Of a DNA stretch of 49,043 nt, positions 21,636-26,319 are shown in pieces. How positions within the stretch are numbered: the first letter of the stretch is position 1; every line of letters begins with the position of its first letter. The notes under the pieces are model-generated. The model ran no database searches and had not been told where the DNA came from. It saw only the letters and a list, made by a program, of their open reading frames with translations. Source of the DNA: an uncultured Alphaproteobacteria bacterium (lineage in GTDB: Bacteria; Pseudomonadota; Alphaproteobacteria; CAAHEQ01; UBA3637); assembly GCA_949286245.1 (NCBI GenBank), contig CASECF010000066.1:1-49043 (forward strand), given 5' to 3'. A program made the position numbers and the translations under genes.

Positions 21636-21815
21636 ATGTCACTCGGTTTTACGGAAATTCTTCTTATTTTTATTGTTATTCTGATTTTGTTCGGGAGTAA
21701 ACGTATTCCGCAATTGGCACGAGCCATCGGGCAAGCCGGCCATGAATATAAAAAAGCGCAACAAGAAGCATTTCATGAACAATCCGATCCGAAAAAAAGA
21801 AAAAATAACTTTTAA
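21636..21815 (+). CDS. tatA: Twin-arginine translocase subunit TatA
   Basis: 59 residues from the ATG at 21636 (GAAGGGAAGGAAA upstream). An N-terminal span (SLGFTEILLIFIVILILFGS) is followed by the FG hinge and an amphipathic helix KRIPQLARAIGQAGHEYKKA, then a charged tail. TatA forms the protein-conducting oligomer of the Tat system. It is separated from tatBC (24656-25732) by about 2.8 kb that contains a repeat copy, an unknown gene and an Fe-S Tat client. Confidence 0.9.
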   Translation: MSLGFTEILLIFIVILILFGSKRIPQLARAIGQAGHEYKKAQQEAFHEQSDPKKRKNNF

Positions 21816-22339: not shown

Positions 22340-22408
22340 AGCTATGTTTTTGTAGTTAAAAACATATTTAGATGTTATTTTTTTAACGCTTGAATGAAGG
22401 AGGGAGCC

Positions 22409-22972
22409 ATGTTATCTGAAGAAAGAAAACAAACATTGACCGGATTGGTTGTGACTCGATTAGATGATGATATTTATTTAATTCAAAAATATTTTGATGG
22501 AGAACCTGAAGTCATTGGAAAAGCAAATTCTCTTTCATTAACAGGTATCAGAAGACCGGAATATGATGAAAACGCCCGTCATATTTTATTACAGAAACTT
22601 ATTTCTTCTGATGGGACAAAATCCCTCTTATATATGTTGCCGATCGAAAATGAAGCCAACGAAATTTGCGGCGCCTTTTTATTTAAAAAAACAAAACAAG
22701 AAGATCATTCGGATGTTCGATTTTTAGGATCCGTCGGTCTTCGAACCTATAAAAAAATGTTAAAAGAGCAGATTCCGGAAGCAGATGCACTCAAATATCC
22801 ATTTGTTTCAGAATCAACAACCACGTTTGAGCCGGACACCATTTCCGGGATTCAGTATCATCGTTATGCGCCACAAACATCTTCACAGCATAATGTTGTT
22901 TCAAAATTTATTGCCTCTCATCACAAACACCTTCCGGAAGCGATGAATGTGAGAGATGGAAAAACCTTATAA
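22409..22972 (+). CDS. Hypothetical protein
   Basis: 187 residues from the ATG at 22409, which follows AAGGAGGGAGCC; an ATG five codons earlier overlaps that ribosome binding site. No signal peptide or membrane span is visible. Recognisable stretches are LVVTRLDDDIYLIQKYFDG, LLYMLPIENEANEICGAFLF and a His-rich end (QYHRYAPQ, ASHHKHLPEA). I recognise no family. It has a strong promoter and its stop codon lies inside a terminator-like hairpin, with a large nested hairpin downstream. Confidence 0.7.
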   Translation: MLSEERKQTLTGLVVTRLDDDIYLIQKYFDGEPEVIGKANSLSLTGIRRPEYDENARHILLQKLISSDGTKSLLYMLPIENEANEICGAFLFKKTKQEDHSDVRFLGSVGLRTYKKMLKEQIPEADALKYPFVSESTTTFEPDTISGIQYHRYAPQTSSQHNVVSKFIASHHKHLPEAMNVRDGKTL

Positions 22973-23180: not shown

Positions 23181-23328
23181 CAATCATCCCTCCTCCACAA
23201 AAATAAATTTTTCTCGATCTACTTATTAAAAACATCTTGACAATATCCCTCTTTAATTAAATAAATTATTTTAATACCGATAAAAAATCAAAAACTCGTC
23301 CCACAACAAACAAGTGGAGAGAAATAAT

Positions 23329-24654
23329 ATGCTTTTGAATCGATTTAAAATAAAAAAACTTTTGTTTCAACACCCCTTGTCGACACTTCGCATTTGTGTT
23401 GCCCTCATAAGCACTCTTTTGTTTTTAGGAGCGTTTACACATATATTTTATCCGATTCCTTTTTTAAACATTCAAATGACACCGCTTATCCAACGTGTCT
23501 TCATTGATTTTACGGGAACGGCTTTTATTTTGTTGGTATGTCTCATTTTGATCACGGTTCTTTTGGGACGATTATACTGTTCAACGCTCTGTCCTCTCGG
23601 TCTTTATCAAGAATTTTTGATGTTTTTTTCTCGCCATCCGAACACTTTACAAAAAAATCAATACGGCAAATATATCATTGCTTTGTTTTTTTGGGGGACC
23701 CTACTGGGAGGGAGTGTTTTTTTTGTTCGTTTTTTAGATCCCTACACGATAGCCGGCGGTATTTTTGAAAGGCTGATACCTGCCTTAATCGCAATCACGC
23801 TGATTACCGTTTTAGTCTTTTGGAAGGGGCGTTTCTTCTGTACACAGATCTGCCCTGTCGGGACACTTCTGGGACTTTTATCAAAATATTCCATGTATCG
23901 TATCCGTTTTCGACAAAACGCTTGTGTCTCTTGTGGTCTATGTGTTAAAACCTGTCCGGCGGGATGTATTGATATCTCTCAACAAAAGGTTCAAAACGAG
24001 ACCTGTTTAAAGTGTTTAAAATGTTTATCCGTTTGTCCTAAAAAAGCACTGTGTTATGGAAGACCCGTCAAACAGAAAATTCCTTTTGATACAAACAGAC
24101 GCCGATTTTTAATTCAACTCTCTTTGATAACAACCGGTTTTTTGTTTGCATGCCAATCCGGTAAAATTCTGGCTCAAAAAACTGCCGAAAAGGCCAAAAG
24201 CATTCTTTTACCGGCGGGAGCCGTCTCTATCGAAAGATTTCAAAACAAATGTTTGAATTGTAATCTATGTGTACAAAATTGTCCGATGAAAATTATTAAA
24301 GCAGCCGGAAACGGTTTTCCTACCGTTCACTTATCCTATGGGAAAAGTTTTTGTGATTATGACTGCCATCGTTGTTCGGAAGTTTGTCCGGCAGGAGCTC
24401 TCAAAAAAATGACACTTTCAGAAAAACAACGGACACAAATCGGATTAGCCGTTATTGATGAAACAAAATGTGTTAAATGCGGTCATTGTGTTCGAATATG
24501 TCCTCGCCAAGCCATAACAAAAGAAAAAAGGAAAGTACCCGTCGTTCATCATGAAACCTGTATCGGATGCGGTGCTTGTCAATCTGTCTGTCCGGTTGGA
24601 GCCATCCGCATCGTTCCGGTTGAACGACAAAAACTTCTATCAAGGGAAGAATAA
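23329..24654 (+). CDS. NapH-NapG-like fused iron-sulfur quinol dehydrogenase with internal Tat signal
   Basis: 441 residues from the ATG at 23329 (GGAGAG upstream; a GTG five codons earlier is possible). The N-terminal half resembles NapH/MauN: about four spans, CSTLCPLG and CTQICPVG motifs, then two ferredoxin clusters (CVSCGLCVKTCP, CLKCLKCLSVCP). Near residue 258 NRRRFLIQLSLITTGFLF is a twin-arginine signal, placed internally. The C-terminal half resembles NapG, with four cluster motifs: CLNCNLCVQNCP, CDYDCHRCSEVCP, CVKCGHCVRICP and CIGCGACQSVCP. NapG and NapH are normally separate; here they form one chain. Predicted role: carry electrons from quinol through cytoplasmic and periplasmic clusters. 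No NapA reductase is nearby. tatB begins 1 base after its stop. Confidence 0.85.
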   Translation: MLLNRFKIKKLLFQHPLSTLRICVALISTLLFLGAFTHIFYPIPFLNIQMTPLIQRVFIDFTGTAFILLVCLILITVLLGRLYCSTLCPLGLYQEFLMFFSRHPNTLQKNQYGKYIIALFFWGTLLGGSVFFVRFLDPYTIAGGIFERLIPALIAITLITVLVFWKGRFFCTQICPVGTLLGLLSKYSMYRIRFRQNACVSCGLCVKTCPAGCIDISQQKVQNETCLKCLKCLSVCPKKALCYGRPVKQKIPFDTNRRRFLIQLSLITTGFLFACQSGKILAQKTAEKAKSILLPAGAVSIERFQNKCLNCNLCVQNCPMKIIKAAGNGFPTVHLSYGKSFCDYDCHRCSEVCPAGALKKMTLSEKQRTQIGLAVIDETKCVKCGHCVRICPRQAITKEKRKVPVVHHETCIGCGACQSVCPVGAIRIVPVERQKLLSREE

Positions 24655-24655
24655 A

Positions 24656-24946
24656 ATGTCTATCGGTTTTTCTGAATTACTTTTAATTATAATTGTTTCT
24701 CTGATTTGTTTTGGAGGAAAACGTCTTCCCGAATTAGCTCATGTTCTTGGAAAAATATCTTATGAATATAAAAAAATCAGAACCGCTTGGTCTCAAGAAT
24801 GGGATTATTTAAAAGAGCCCCCTTCATCCCTATCTACCGCACAAAAAAAACAAAATAAAAAAAGAGTACGACCCTCTGTCACTCCTTCAAAGAAGAATTC
24901 TTCTCAGGAAACGACTGTTCGCTCTCACACAAAAAGGGAACATTAA
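24656..24946 (+). CDS. tatB: Twin-arginine translocase subunit TatB
   Basis: 96 residues from the ATG at 24656 with AAGGGAAGAATAAA upstream. The start MSIGFSELLLIIIV with the later KRLPELAHVLGKI segment is the TatB pattern; the FGG hinge is TatA-like, so an A/B-type subunit is possible. An amphipathic helix and a Lys/Ser/Thr-rich tail follow. TatB with TatC forms the signal-peptide receptor. It begins right after the Fe-S fusion gene, and tatC starts at the next base after its TAA. Confidence 0.88.
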   Translation: MSIGFSELLLIIIVSLICFGGKRLPELAHVLGKISYEYKKIRTAWSQEWDYLKEPPSSLSTAQKKQNKKRVRPSVTPSKKNSSQETTVRSHTKREH

Positions 24947-25732
24947 ATGACCTCTCGTGCTTCCGATGATCAATCGTCTTTTTTATCTCATTTGGAAAAA
25001 TTAAGAAATCTTCTGCTTGAATGTTTTCTGGCTCTTGGTATCTTTCTGATTCCCGCCTTATTTTTAGCACCGTTTTGTTTGGATTTATTCGTCCTTTTTA
25101 TTCATCAAAAAGTATCGGTTCCTCTCAATTATTTTTCTCCTTTAGAGATATTTTTACTACATCTCAAAATTGCCTTTCTATTGGATTTTATAATATGTCT
25201 ACCCTATATTGCCCATCGCCTATGGAAATTTATTCTACCGGGGCTTTATGAAAGCGAACGGCGACTTATTCGACTCTGCGCTTTGATTTCTTGCGGACTG
25301 TTTATTTTGGGTGTTTTGTGTGGCTTTATTTTTATCTTACCCTTGATAATGACTTTCGGAATTGGGTTTGAACAAGAAAATATCCGAGCGGTTTTAAATA
25401 TTTCAACTGTTATTTCTCTCTCTTTATGGCTAAGTGTTTCTTTTGGTATCGTGTTTCAACTCCCGCTTTTAACGGTTATTCTGGTTCGATGTGGTCTTCT
25501 CTCTATTCAGACTCTTCAAGCAAAAAGACCTTATGTTATTGTCGGTATTTTAGTCATCTCGGCTCTTTTAACACCACCGGACATAATCAGTCAACTCATG
25601 ATGGCGGTTCCTACTTATATTCTGTTCGAACTGGCTTTATTCTTTTGTCGTTATTTAAACCGGTCTCCCGTAAAAAACAAATTGACCTCAAAACAAATAA
25701 TCCCTAAAGTAAAAAAGAAGCGTTTAAAATAA
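24947..25732 (+). CDS. tatC: Sec-independent translocase subunit TatC
   Basis: 261 residues with six predicted spans. The N-terminus has SFLSHLEKLRN, matching the conserved TatC start, followed by YFSPLEIFLLHLKIAF, LYESERRLI (the F/Y-x-x-E loop) and LTPPDIISQLMMAVPTYILFEL, all family signatures. TatC binds twin-arginine signals. The ATG directly abuts the tatB stop. The Tat client encoded just upstream carries an internal RRRFLI signal, which suggests dedicated co-production. Confidence 0.95.
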   Translation: MTSRASDDQSSFLSHLEKLRNLLLECFLALGIFLIPALFLAPFCLDLFVLFIHQKVSVPLNYFSPLEIFLLHLKIAFLLDFIICLPYIAHRLWKFILPGLYESERRLIRLCALISCGLFILGVLCGFIFILPLIMTFGIGFEQENIRAVLNISTVISLSLWLSVSFGIVFQLPLLTVILVRCGLLSIQTLQAKRPYVIVGILVISALLTPPDIISQLMMAVPTYILFELALFFCRYLNRSPVKNKLTSKQIIPKVKKKRLK

Positions 25733-25749
25733 GATTCCATGGAGAAATA

Positions 25750-26319
25750 ATGAAGTATACATCAACTCTTCTCTTTTTAATTGTTTTTTCTGTCATAACA
25801 TTATTTTCCGACCTGCTAATGGCTCAAACAGCGGGAAATGAAAAACAACCTCGTATTCTCATCGCTTACTATTCCCTATCGGGAAATACAAAAAAGATAG
25901 CACAAACAATCCAACGAACAATCGGAGGCGATTTATTTGAAATTAAAACAGCGCAATCCTATCCGACAGAATATCGTGTTTTAGTGACGCAAGCCAAAAA
26001 AGAAATCAACGATGGATATCTCCCGACACTTAAAAATGCGGTCACGCAGATAGACCAATACGACATTGTTTTTATCGGGTCTCCGAATTGGTGGGGGACT
26101 ATTACTCCGGCCGTGAGTTCTTTTTTAAAACAAGCCAATCTGAAAGGAAAAACTGTTATTCCGTTTATCACACACGGCGGAGGCGGTATTCAAAATACGA
26201 TTCAAGACTTCACAAAGCAGTGCACGGGTTGTCTGATTGATCAGGGAAGCTTTTCAAGTTATGAGGGTGACACCATCGGCCTCACTGATTTTTTAGAAAA
26301 ATTAAAACAAATAAATTAA
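25750..26319 (+). CDS. Exported flavodoxin
   Basis: 189 residues. A Sec-type signal peptide (about residues 1-25, ending LLMAQ) precedes a flavodoxin domain with the FMN phosphate loop YYSLSGNTKKIA, then SPNWWGTITPAVSSFL and FITHGGGG. Most flavodoxins are cytoplasmic; this one is predicted to be periplasmic or lipid-free secreted. It lies 17 bases after tatC on the same strand, so it belongs to the Fe-S/Tat block and may accept electrons from the NapG-like half. The signal lacks twin arginine, so FMN would have to be loaded after export. Confidence 0.88.
   Translation: MKYTSTLLFLIVFSVITLFSDLLMAQTAGNEKQPRILIAYYSLSGNTKKIAQTIQRTIGGDLFEIKTAQSYPTEYRVLVTQAKKEINDGYLPTLKNAVTQIDQYDIVFIGSPNWWGTITPAVSSFLKQANLKGKTVIPFITHGGGGIQNTIQDFTKQCTGCLIDQGSFSSYEGDTIGLTDFLEKLKQIN

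Follow-up and report, generated by a model that had tools for sequence, protein, structure and literature searches.

A search of all prokaryotic proteins for an internal twin-arginine (RR) motif preceding the last transmembrane span uncovered a family of 'polytopic polyferredoxins' (Tooke et al. 2017; PMC5449189). The authors described these proteins, with their three inner and four outer clusters, as 'a fusion of NapH with NapG'. When the reporters MBP and AmiA were fused to the membrane-spanning portion of the member from delta proteobacterium MLMS-1, their export was RR-dependent, and Tat dependence of the transmembrane region was shown in E. coli (PMC5449189). To account for the hand-over from Sec to Tat, the authors pointed to the weak hydrophobicity of the last span and to the positive charges behind it, and they named NapGH as the two-gene counterpart (PMC5449189). 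Linkage of these genes to tat genes appears to be undiscussed in that paper, where the word 'operon' is absent. Client–translocase linkage has a precedent in phoD–tatAd–tatCd of Bacillus subtilis (PMC3068169), and tatC neighbourhoods have been surveyed (PMC3827258). Finally, some Flavodoxin_4 proteins carry covalent FMN, attached by ApbE at an inserted loop (PMC8238504, PMC11334425).

Here we describe a polyferredoxin gene in a 49,043-nucleotide stretch of DNA from an uncultured alphaproteobacterium (the window). On balance, we consider it likely that the gene product is a dual Sec–Tat polyferredoxin, encoded in an operon-like array, co-inherited with a distinct TatC lineage, and acting as an electron carrier and as the protein that its Tat translocase chiefly serves.

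The polyferredoxin and its neighbours

The gene is a single intact open reading frame running from an ATG at 23329 to a stop at 24654, with GGAGAG upstream (Table 1). This start is favoured over an in-frame GTG farther upstream, at 23314. Among the 42 loci of relatives fetched from bacterial genomes, 40 contain a single full-length frame, the exceptions being one gene truncated by the end of a contig (L043) and one that is split (L044). The preliminary description had proposed that NapH and NapG are fused in one chain, and the intact 441-residue frame, with its four N-terminal spans and RRRFL leading into a fifth, agrees. It had also named a frameshift and an alternate start near residue 250 as possible grounds for doubt, and neither was found. 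A frameshift or two-gene artefact is ruled out by conservation of the single frame and of the twin arginine, and the alternate start by the absence of in-frame ATG, GTG or TTG codons between residue 189 and the RR, the nearest candidates being ATG at residue 189 and TTG at residue 266.

Table 1. Positions of the polyferredoxin gene, its parts and neighbouring genes in the window
Feature	Positions	Strand	Basis or remark
Separate tatA, 1.5 kb upstream	21636..21815	+	57 bits; same order in L043
Ribosome binding site GGAGAG	23316..23321	+	Sequence; 7 nt before ATG
Dual Sec–Tat polyferredoxin gene, 441 aa	23329..24654	+	Frame, Pfam, NCBIfam, alignment
NapH-like part, residues 1–246: four spans, CxxxCP twice, CxxCxxCxxxC twice	23329..24066	+	Pfam, NCBIfam, alignment, hydropathy
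Internal twin-arginine motif RRR(FL), residues 257–259	24097..24105	+	R257 and R258 invariant
Fifth span, predicted Tat-dependent, residues 260–278	24106..24162	+	Least hydrophobic of five, then net positive charge
NapG-like part, four 4Fe-4S motifs, predicted extracytoplasmic	24250..24591	+	Pfam, NCBIfam, alignment
tatA/B-family gene (TatB-like)	24656..24946	+	PF02416; one base after polyferredoxin stop
tatC, polyferredoxin-linked lineage	24947..25732	+	PF00902, E 1e-53; tree
Flavodoxin_4 protein, N-terminal Sec-type signal, probable partner	25750..26319	+	Pfam; conserved YYSxSGNT loop

The protein contains two Fer4_5 (NapH-type) stretches and many Fer4 stretches in Pfam. In NCBIfam searches with a 446-residue reading of the gene, residues 13–248 resemble NapH and residues 258–437 resemble NapG, both below the equivalog cut-offs (93.5 bits against 213 for TIGR02163, 88.9 against 234 for NapH and 71.8 against 269 for NapG). 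The hydropathy profile places four spans at about residues 22–40, 61–79, 115–133 and 145–165 and a fifth, weakly hydrophobic one, at 260–278, directly preceded by RRR. In an alignment of 22 polyferredoxins, R257, R258 and 28 cysteines are invariant; 12 of these cysteines precede the RR and 16 follow it, giving seven 4Fe-4S sites, three plus four. The upstream set comprises CxxCxxCxxxC motifs at C199–C209 and C226–C236 and CxxxCP motifs at C84/C88 and C171/C175, and the downstream motifs lie at C308–318, C342–353, C381–391 and C411–421. Thus, the four clusters first counted after the RR stand, whereas the two of cytoplasmic type become three potential ones with the two extra invariant CxxxCP motifs. 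In all 22 sequences, no other span is as weakly hydrophobic as span 5 (Hessa-scale sums in the window's protein, 4.5 for span 5 and -4.1 to 1.7 for spans 1–4), and the residues that follow it have a positive net charge, again in 22 of 22; these values are simple residue sums, unlike those of the server used by Tooke et al. 2017. An AlphaFold prediction (22 sequences; mean pLDDT 67, pTM 0.45) was too weak for topology, and Foldseek with the model returned ferredoxin domains only.

An even number of spans, then an RR before the last one, seven sites (three plus four) and a weak last span with positive charges place the protein in the described class. Like Q1NSB0 of MLMS-1 (eLife 6:e26577, PMC5449189), it has five spans with the RR directly before the fifth, seven 4Fe-4S sites (three in, four out) and a weak span 5 with positive charges following. 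It differs in the position of span 5, which occupies residues 338–359 in Q1NSB0, and in its setting, in gut Alphaproteobacteria, where tat genes of its own and the gene for an exported flavodoxin lie alongside. The preliminary description had called the protein a topologically unusual Tat client: the topology agrees with the sequence and with the homologue experiments (PMC5449189), and the protein type is already known.

Several variants were observed. A 384-residue polyferredoxin in genome G493 (L084:4449-5603) has lost the RR and span 5 in frame with its clusters kept, and tatA, tatC and a Tat-signal reductase are retained beside it; it may possibly be a topology switch or an assembly error. 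One genome (L032 and L040) encodes two paralogues, one tat-linked and one unlinked, and the polyferredoxins of L026, L031 and L034 resemble the unlinked type. At the end of span 5, LFAC (residues 272–275, window 24142-24153) weakly matches a lipobox; this reading was dropped because LFAC is variable among relatives.

The polyferredoxin, tatB-like, tatC and flavodoxin genes form an operon-like array, all on the + strand with gaps of 1, 0 and 17 bases and with no terminator-like site between them; a promoter scan gave a result at chance level. The position directly upstream of tatB, noted at the outset, is exact: the tatB-like ATG lies at 24656, one base past the polyferredoxin stop. Between tatA and the polyferredoxin gene, window 22394-22972 encodes a 192-residue protein with no Pfam match, a close homologue of which lies in the same place in L043.

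Probable co-inheritance with a TatC lineage

tatC lies directly downstream of the polyferredoxin gene in 34 of the 42 relatives, and three more loci stop at a contig edge. The window's order is represented by 43 genomes of one family: 10 have the polyferredoxin, 10 have TatC, nine have both, one has each without the other and 32 have neither. Of 153 genomes from a second gut order, to which G384 led, 80 have the polyferredoxin, 79 TatC, 78 both, two the polyferredoxin only, one TatC only and 72 neither. There, the polyferredoxin is present in 78 of the 79 TatC genomes, TatC is absent from 72 of the 73 genomes that lack the polyferredoxin, and the two genes are directly adjacent, polyferredoxin upstream, in 72 of the 78 genomes with both. 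The linkage is real, and much stronger than could be known to the preliminary description, which had suggested searching other genomes for the fusion and its tat neighbours. The co-occurrence has a Fisher P of 3e-40, a value that ignores kinship and overstates certainty. Both states are found inside at least seven genera (g1, g11, g60, g269, g287, g296 and g299), so the association does not reflect one founder event. Across Alphaproteobacteria more widely the polyferredoxin is rare, occurring in nine of 385 sampled genomes, which belong to three families only.

The discordant genomes are few. In the second order, the single TatC without a polyferredoxin belongs to a member of another family (G571), and the two polyferredoxins without a detected TatC are those of G425 and of G437, where the contig ends after tatA. 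In the window's order, G007 has TatC without the polyferredoxin and G011 has the polyferredoxin with no TatC found. The genome of G011 (L086) is 99% complete and its RR is intact; either the TatC contig is missing or the polyferredoxin outlived Tat. In G508, the polyferredoxin gene runs near a contig end, which is only suggestive of joint decay of polyferredoxin and TatC. Four genomes (G010, G012, G006 and G008) combine the polyferredoxin with an ordinary, unlinked TatC, indicating that the linked Tat is not obligatory.

A phylogenetic tree of TatC puts the linked sequences of the two orders together on a very long branch, split 100/100 from the ordinary TatCs of the window's own family (G006, G007, G008, G010 and G012) and from that of G571; the tree was midpoint-rooted with no outside root, its branches are long and its bootstrap had not settled. 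Distribution, adjacency and tree together support inheritance of the polyferredoxin as a unit with a distinct TatC lineage. The simplest reading is that the unit moved between orders and that most genomes lacking it have lost Tat completely.

The polyferredoxin gene is both adjacent to and co-distributed with tat genes, one of the marks of a Tat translocase linked to a dedicated client. In this it is like the phoD–tatAd–tatCd case of Bacillus subtilis (PMC3068169, PMC3827258), where the client gene also lies directly upstream of the tatA–tatC pair serving it and where linked TatC isoforms, some horizontally moved, are likewise seen. However, PhoD is a secreted enzyme and the polyferredoxin a polytopic Sec–Tat membrane protein; moreover, no genome of the second order that has the linked Tat showed another one. 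What is new is a polytopic Sec–Tat client co-inherited with its own Tat lineage across two orders of gut Alphaproteobacteria.

The window's genome was scanned for other clients. Across 45% of it (663 kb), a rule combining RR with a hydrophobic pattern found no convincing N-terminal Tat signal; its seven hits include cytoplasmic-looking proteins. Among these are sequences that by eye we take to be UvrB-like and FabF-like. The identical rule gave many hits in the relatives' loci, and five or more randomly spread clients would have yielded at least one hit in the part scanned with a probability of about 95%. The Tat signal model TIGR01409 had no match in the window's genome, although it also misses the internal polyferredoxin motif, and a genome-wide RRxF DNA pattern was at chance level (659 hits against 716 in the reversed control). 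The polyferredoxin is thus likely to be the main client of its translocase in this genome.

The linkage and co-distribution might instead stem from an ordinary Tat locus that was vertically retained and happens to lie beside the polyferredoxin gene in genomes shedding other respiratory genes, the polyferredoxin being one client of many. The genomes are indeed reduced (1–2 Mb), and in the second order predicted Tat clients lie near the locus (aldo/keto reductase, FMN reductase, a metallo-beta-lactamase fold and DUF362). We nevertheless regard this explanation as unlikely: the linked TatC differs from the family's ordinary lineage, polyferredoxin and TatC are gained or lost jointly within mixed genera, the relatives' Tat-signal aldo/keto reductase and DUF362 proteins were not found in the window's genome (the former in a search without a positive control), and the scanned 45% holds no other clear Tat signal.

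Flavodoxin, an improbable nitrate context and nickel-pincer genes in relatives

The flavodoxin downstream of tatC (PF12682, 89 bits against a gathering threshold of 24) keeps the FMN phosphate loop, YYSxSGNT, and is the most regular other neighbour of the polyferredoxin. High-scoring flavodoxins occur in 61 of 80 polyferredoxin genomes (19 are without) as against one of 73 others, lie within 8 kb of the polyferredoxin gene in 50 of the 61, and stay beside it in G008, where Tat is unlinked. It is probably the recipient of polyferredoxin electrons. As in NapH-like flavinylated systems and extracytosolic Flavodoxin_4 proteins (PMC8238504, PMC11334425), a NapH-type membrane Fe–S protein would pass electrons to an extracytosolic flavoprotein. 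The differences are that ApbE attaches covalent FMN there, whereas an alignment of 16 flavodoxins shows no inserted flavinylation loop between strand 1 and helix 1, and that the polyferredoxin has a predicted Tat-exported ferredoxin domain in place of the FMN domain.

The NapH–NapG resemblance had implied a nitrate context, in which the polyferredoxin would be a genuine NapGH-type quinol dehydrogenase for a periplasmic nitrate or other molybdenum reductase. Its halves do match NapH and NapG best, NapGH is the published two-gene counterpart, and it shares with NapG plus NapH of the Nap system the same two modules and probably the same direction of electron flow. We nonetheless consider this role highly improbable. 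NapG and NapH are separate genes there, the curated cut-offs lie far above the scores obtained here, and no molybdopterin reductase is among the recurrent neighbours in the 42 relatives. In the window's own genome (G000, 94% complete), no molybdopterin oxidoreductase (PF00384), and so no NapA-type enzyme, was found, although 11 of 14 control genomes gave one; nitrate respiration is thus excluded as far as a genome of that completeness allows, and a nitrate context is not supported.

Fuller versions of the unit are seen in the second order, where it is often joined to LarB, LarC and LarE, of nickel-pincer nucleotide synthesis, and to RR-signal proteins, among them a Tat-signal aldo/keto reductase whose C-terminal part bears two 4Fe-4S motifs. 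Lar-joined units include L004, L007, L009, L013-L015, L019, L021, L025, L027, L030, L038, L040, L042 and others, many of which also carry a conserved membrane protein (c8) with no family match. The aldo/keto reductase (L025:478-1713 and 21 relatives) shares 74-89% identity with the reference sequence in many genomes; its gene apparently evolves much slower than that of the polyferredoxin. In the window's family, G010, G011 and G012 have a Tat-signal DUF362 protein beside flavodoxin and polyferredoxin, and G010 also has a LarC-like gene. DUF362 proteins were located at L086:4172-5170, L095:1962-2960, L096:10448-11482, L024:4390-5328 and L040:4991-5917, most with an RR signal peptide.

DUF362 and LarA belong to one Pfam clan (PMC11770544). 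For the predicted structure of the L086 DUF362 protein, each of the 18 PDB matches that have an E-value under 0.001 is a LarA-type enzyme, at a TM-score of about 0.4 to the query, a partial, fold-level resemblance. Four DUF362 residues are invariant: H124, H181, K191 and H208. These resemble the His/Lys set of LarA, a likeness that we take as a lead only. We hypothesize that the relatives need Tat because they export a nickel-pincer enzyme that folds and receives its cofactor in the cytoplasm; this concerns the relatives' loci, and not directly the window's genome. A broader reading, which we put forward tentatively and rate as doubtful, is of a mobile, self-sufficient module, in which a Tat translocase of a separate lineage would serve mainly to assemble a single Sec–Tat wire that would reduce the non-flavinylated periplasmic flavodoxin and, in relatives, a Tat-exported aldo/keto reductase and LarA-fold enzymes with a LarBCE-made nickel-pincer cofactor. 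If true, nickel-pincer redox chemistry would run outside the cytoplasm, in a system equipped with an exporter of its own.

Proposed assembly of the putative electron wire

We propose that Sec inserts spans 1–4 of the polyferredoxin, so that two to three 4Fe-4S clusters stay on the inner side. Span 5 would be too weakly hydrophobic and too positively flanked for Sec to hold and would be released, and its RR motif would then pass the folded four-cluster domain to Tat. Sequence features and analogy to the characterized homologue support this Sec-then-Tat route. That the internal RR is unused, Sec alone inserting span 5 with the C-terminal clusters inside or misfolded, is very improbable: adjacent arginines before a hydrophobic stretch do arise by chance, and the G493 protein keeps its clusters minus RR and span 5, but the RR is conserved in every aligned full-length relative, span 5 is uniformly the least hydrophobic, tat is adjacent and a homologue is proven to be RR-dependent. 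Once assembled by Sec and then Tat, the seven clusters may take electrons from quinol or from a donor in the cytosol and deliver them to acceptors in the periplasm, the flavodoxin or others, and onward.

We read the polyferredoxin–tat unit as a co-inherited cassette, a Sec–Tat electron wire with its own translocase. Tat is usually pictured as a general exporter that serves many clients. Across the two orders studied here, a Tat lineage and one polytopic client seem to come and go jointly. The natural pairs of presence and absence may help to reveal which parts of TatC recognize an internal, membrane-anchored RR signal. Finally, the recurring neighbours of the polyferredoxin point to a periplasmic redox pathway, so far undescribed, in gut bacteria that are common but uncultured.
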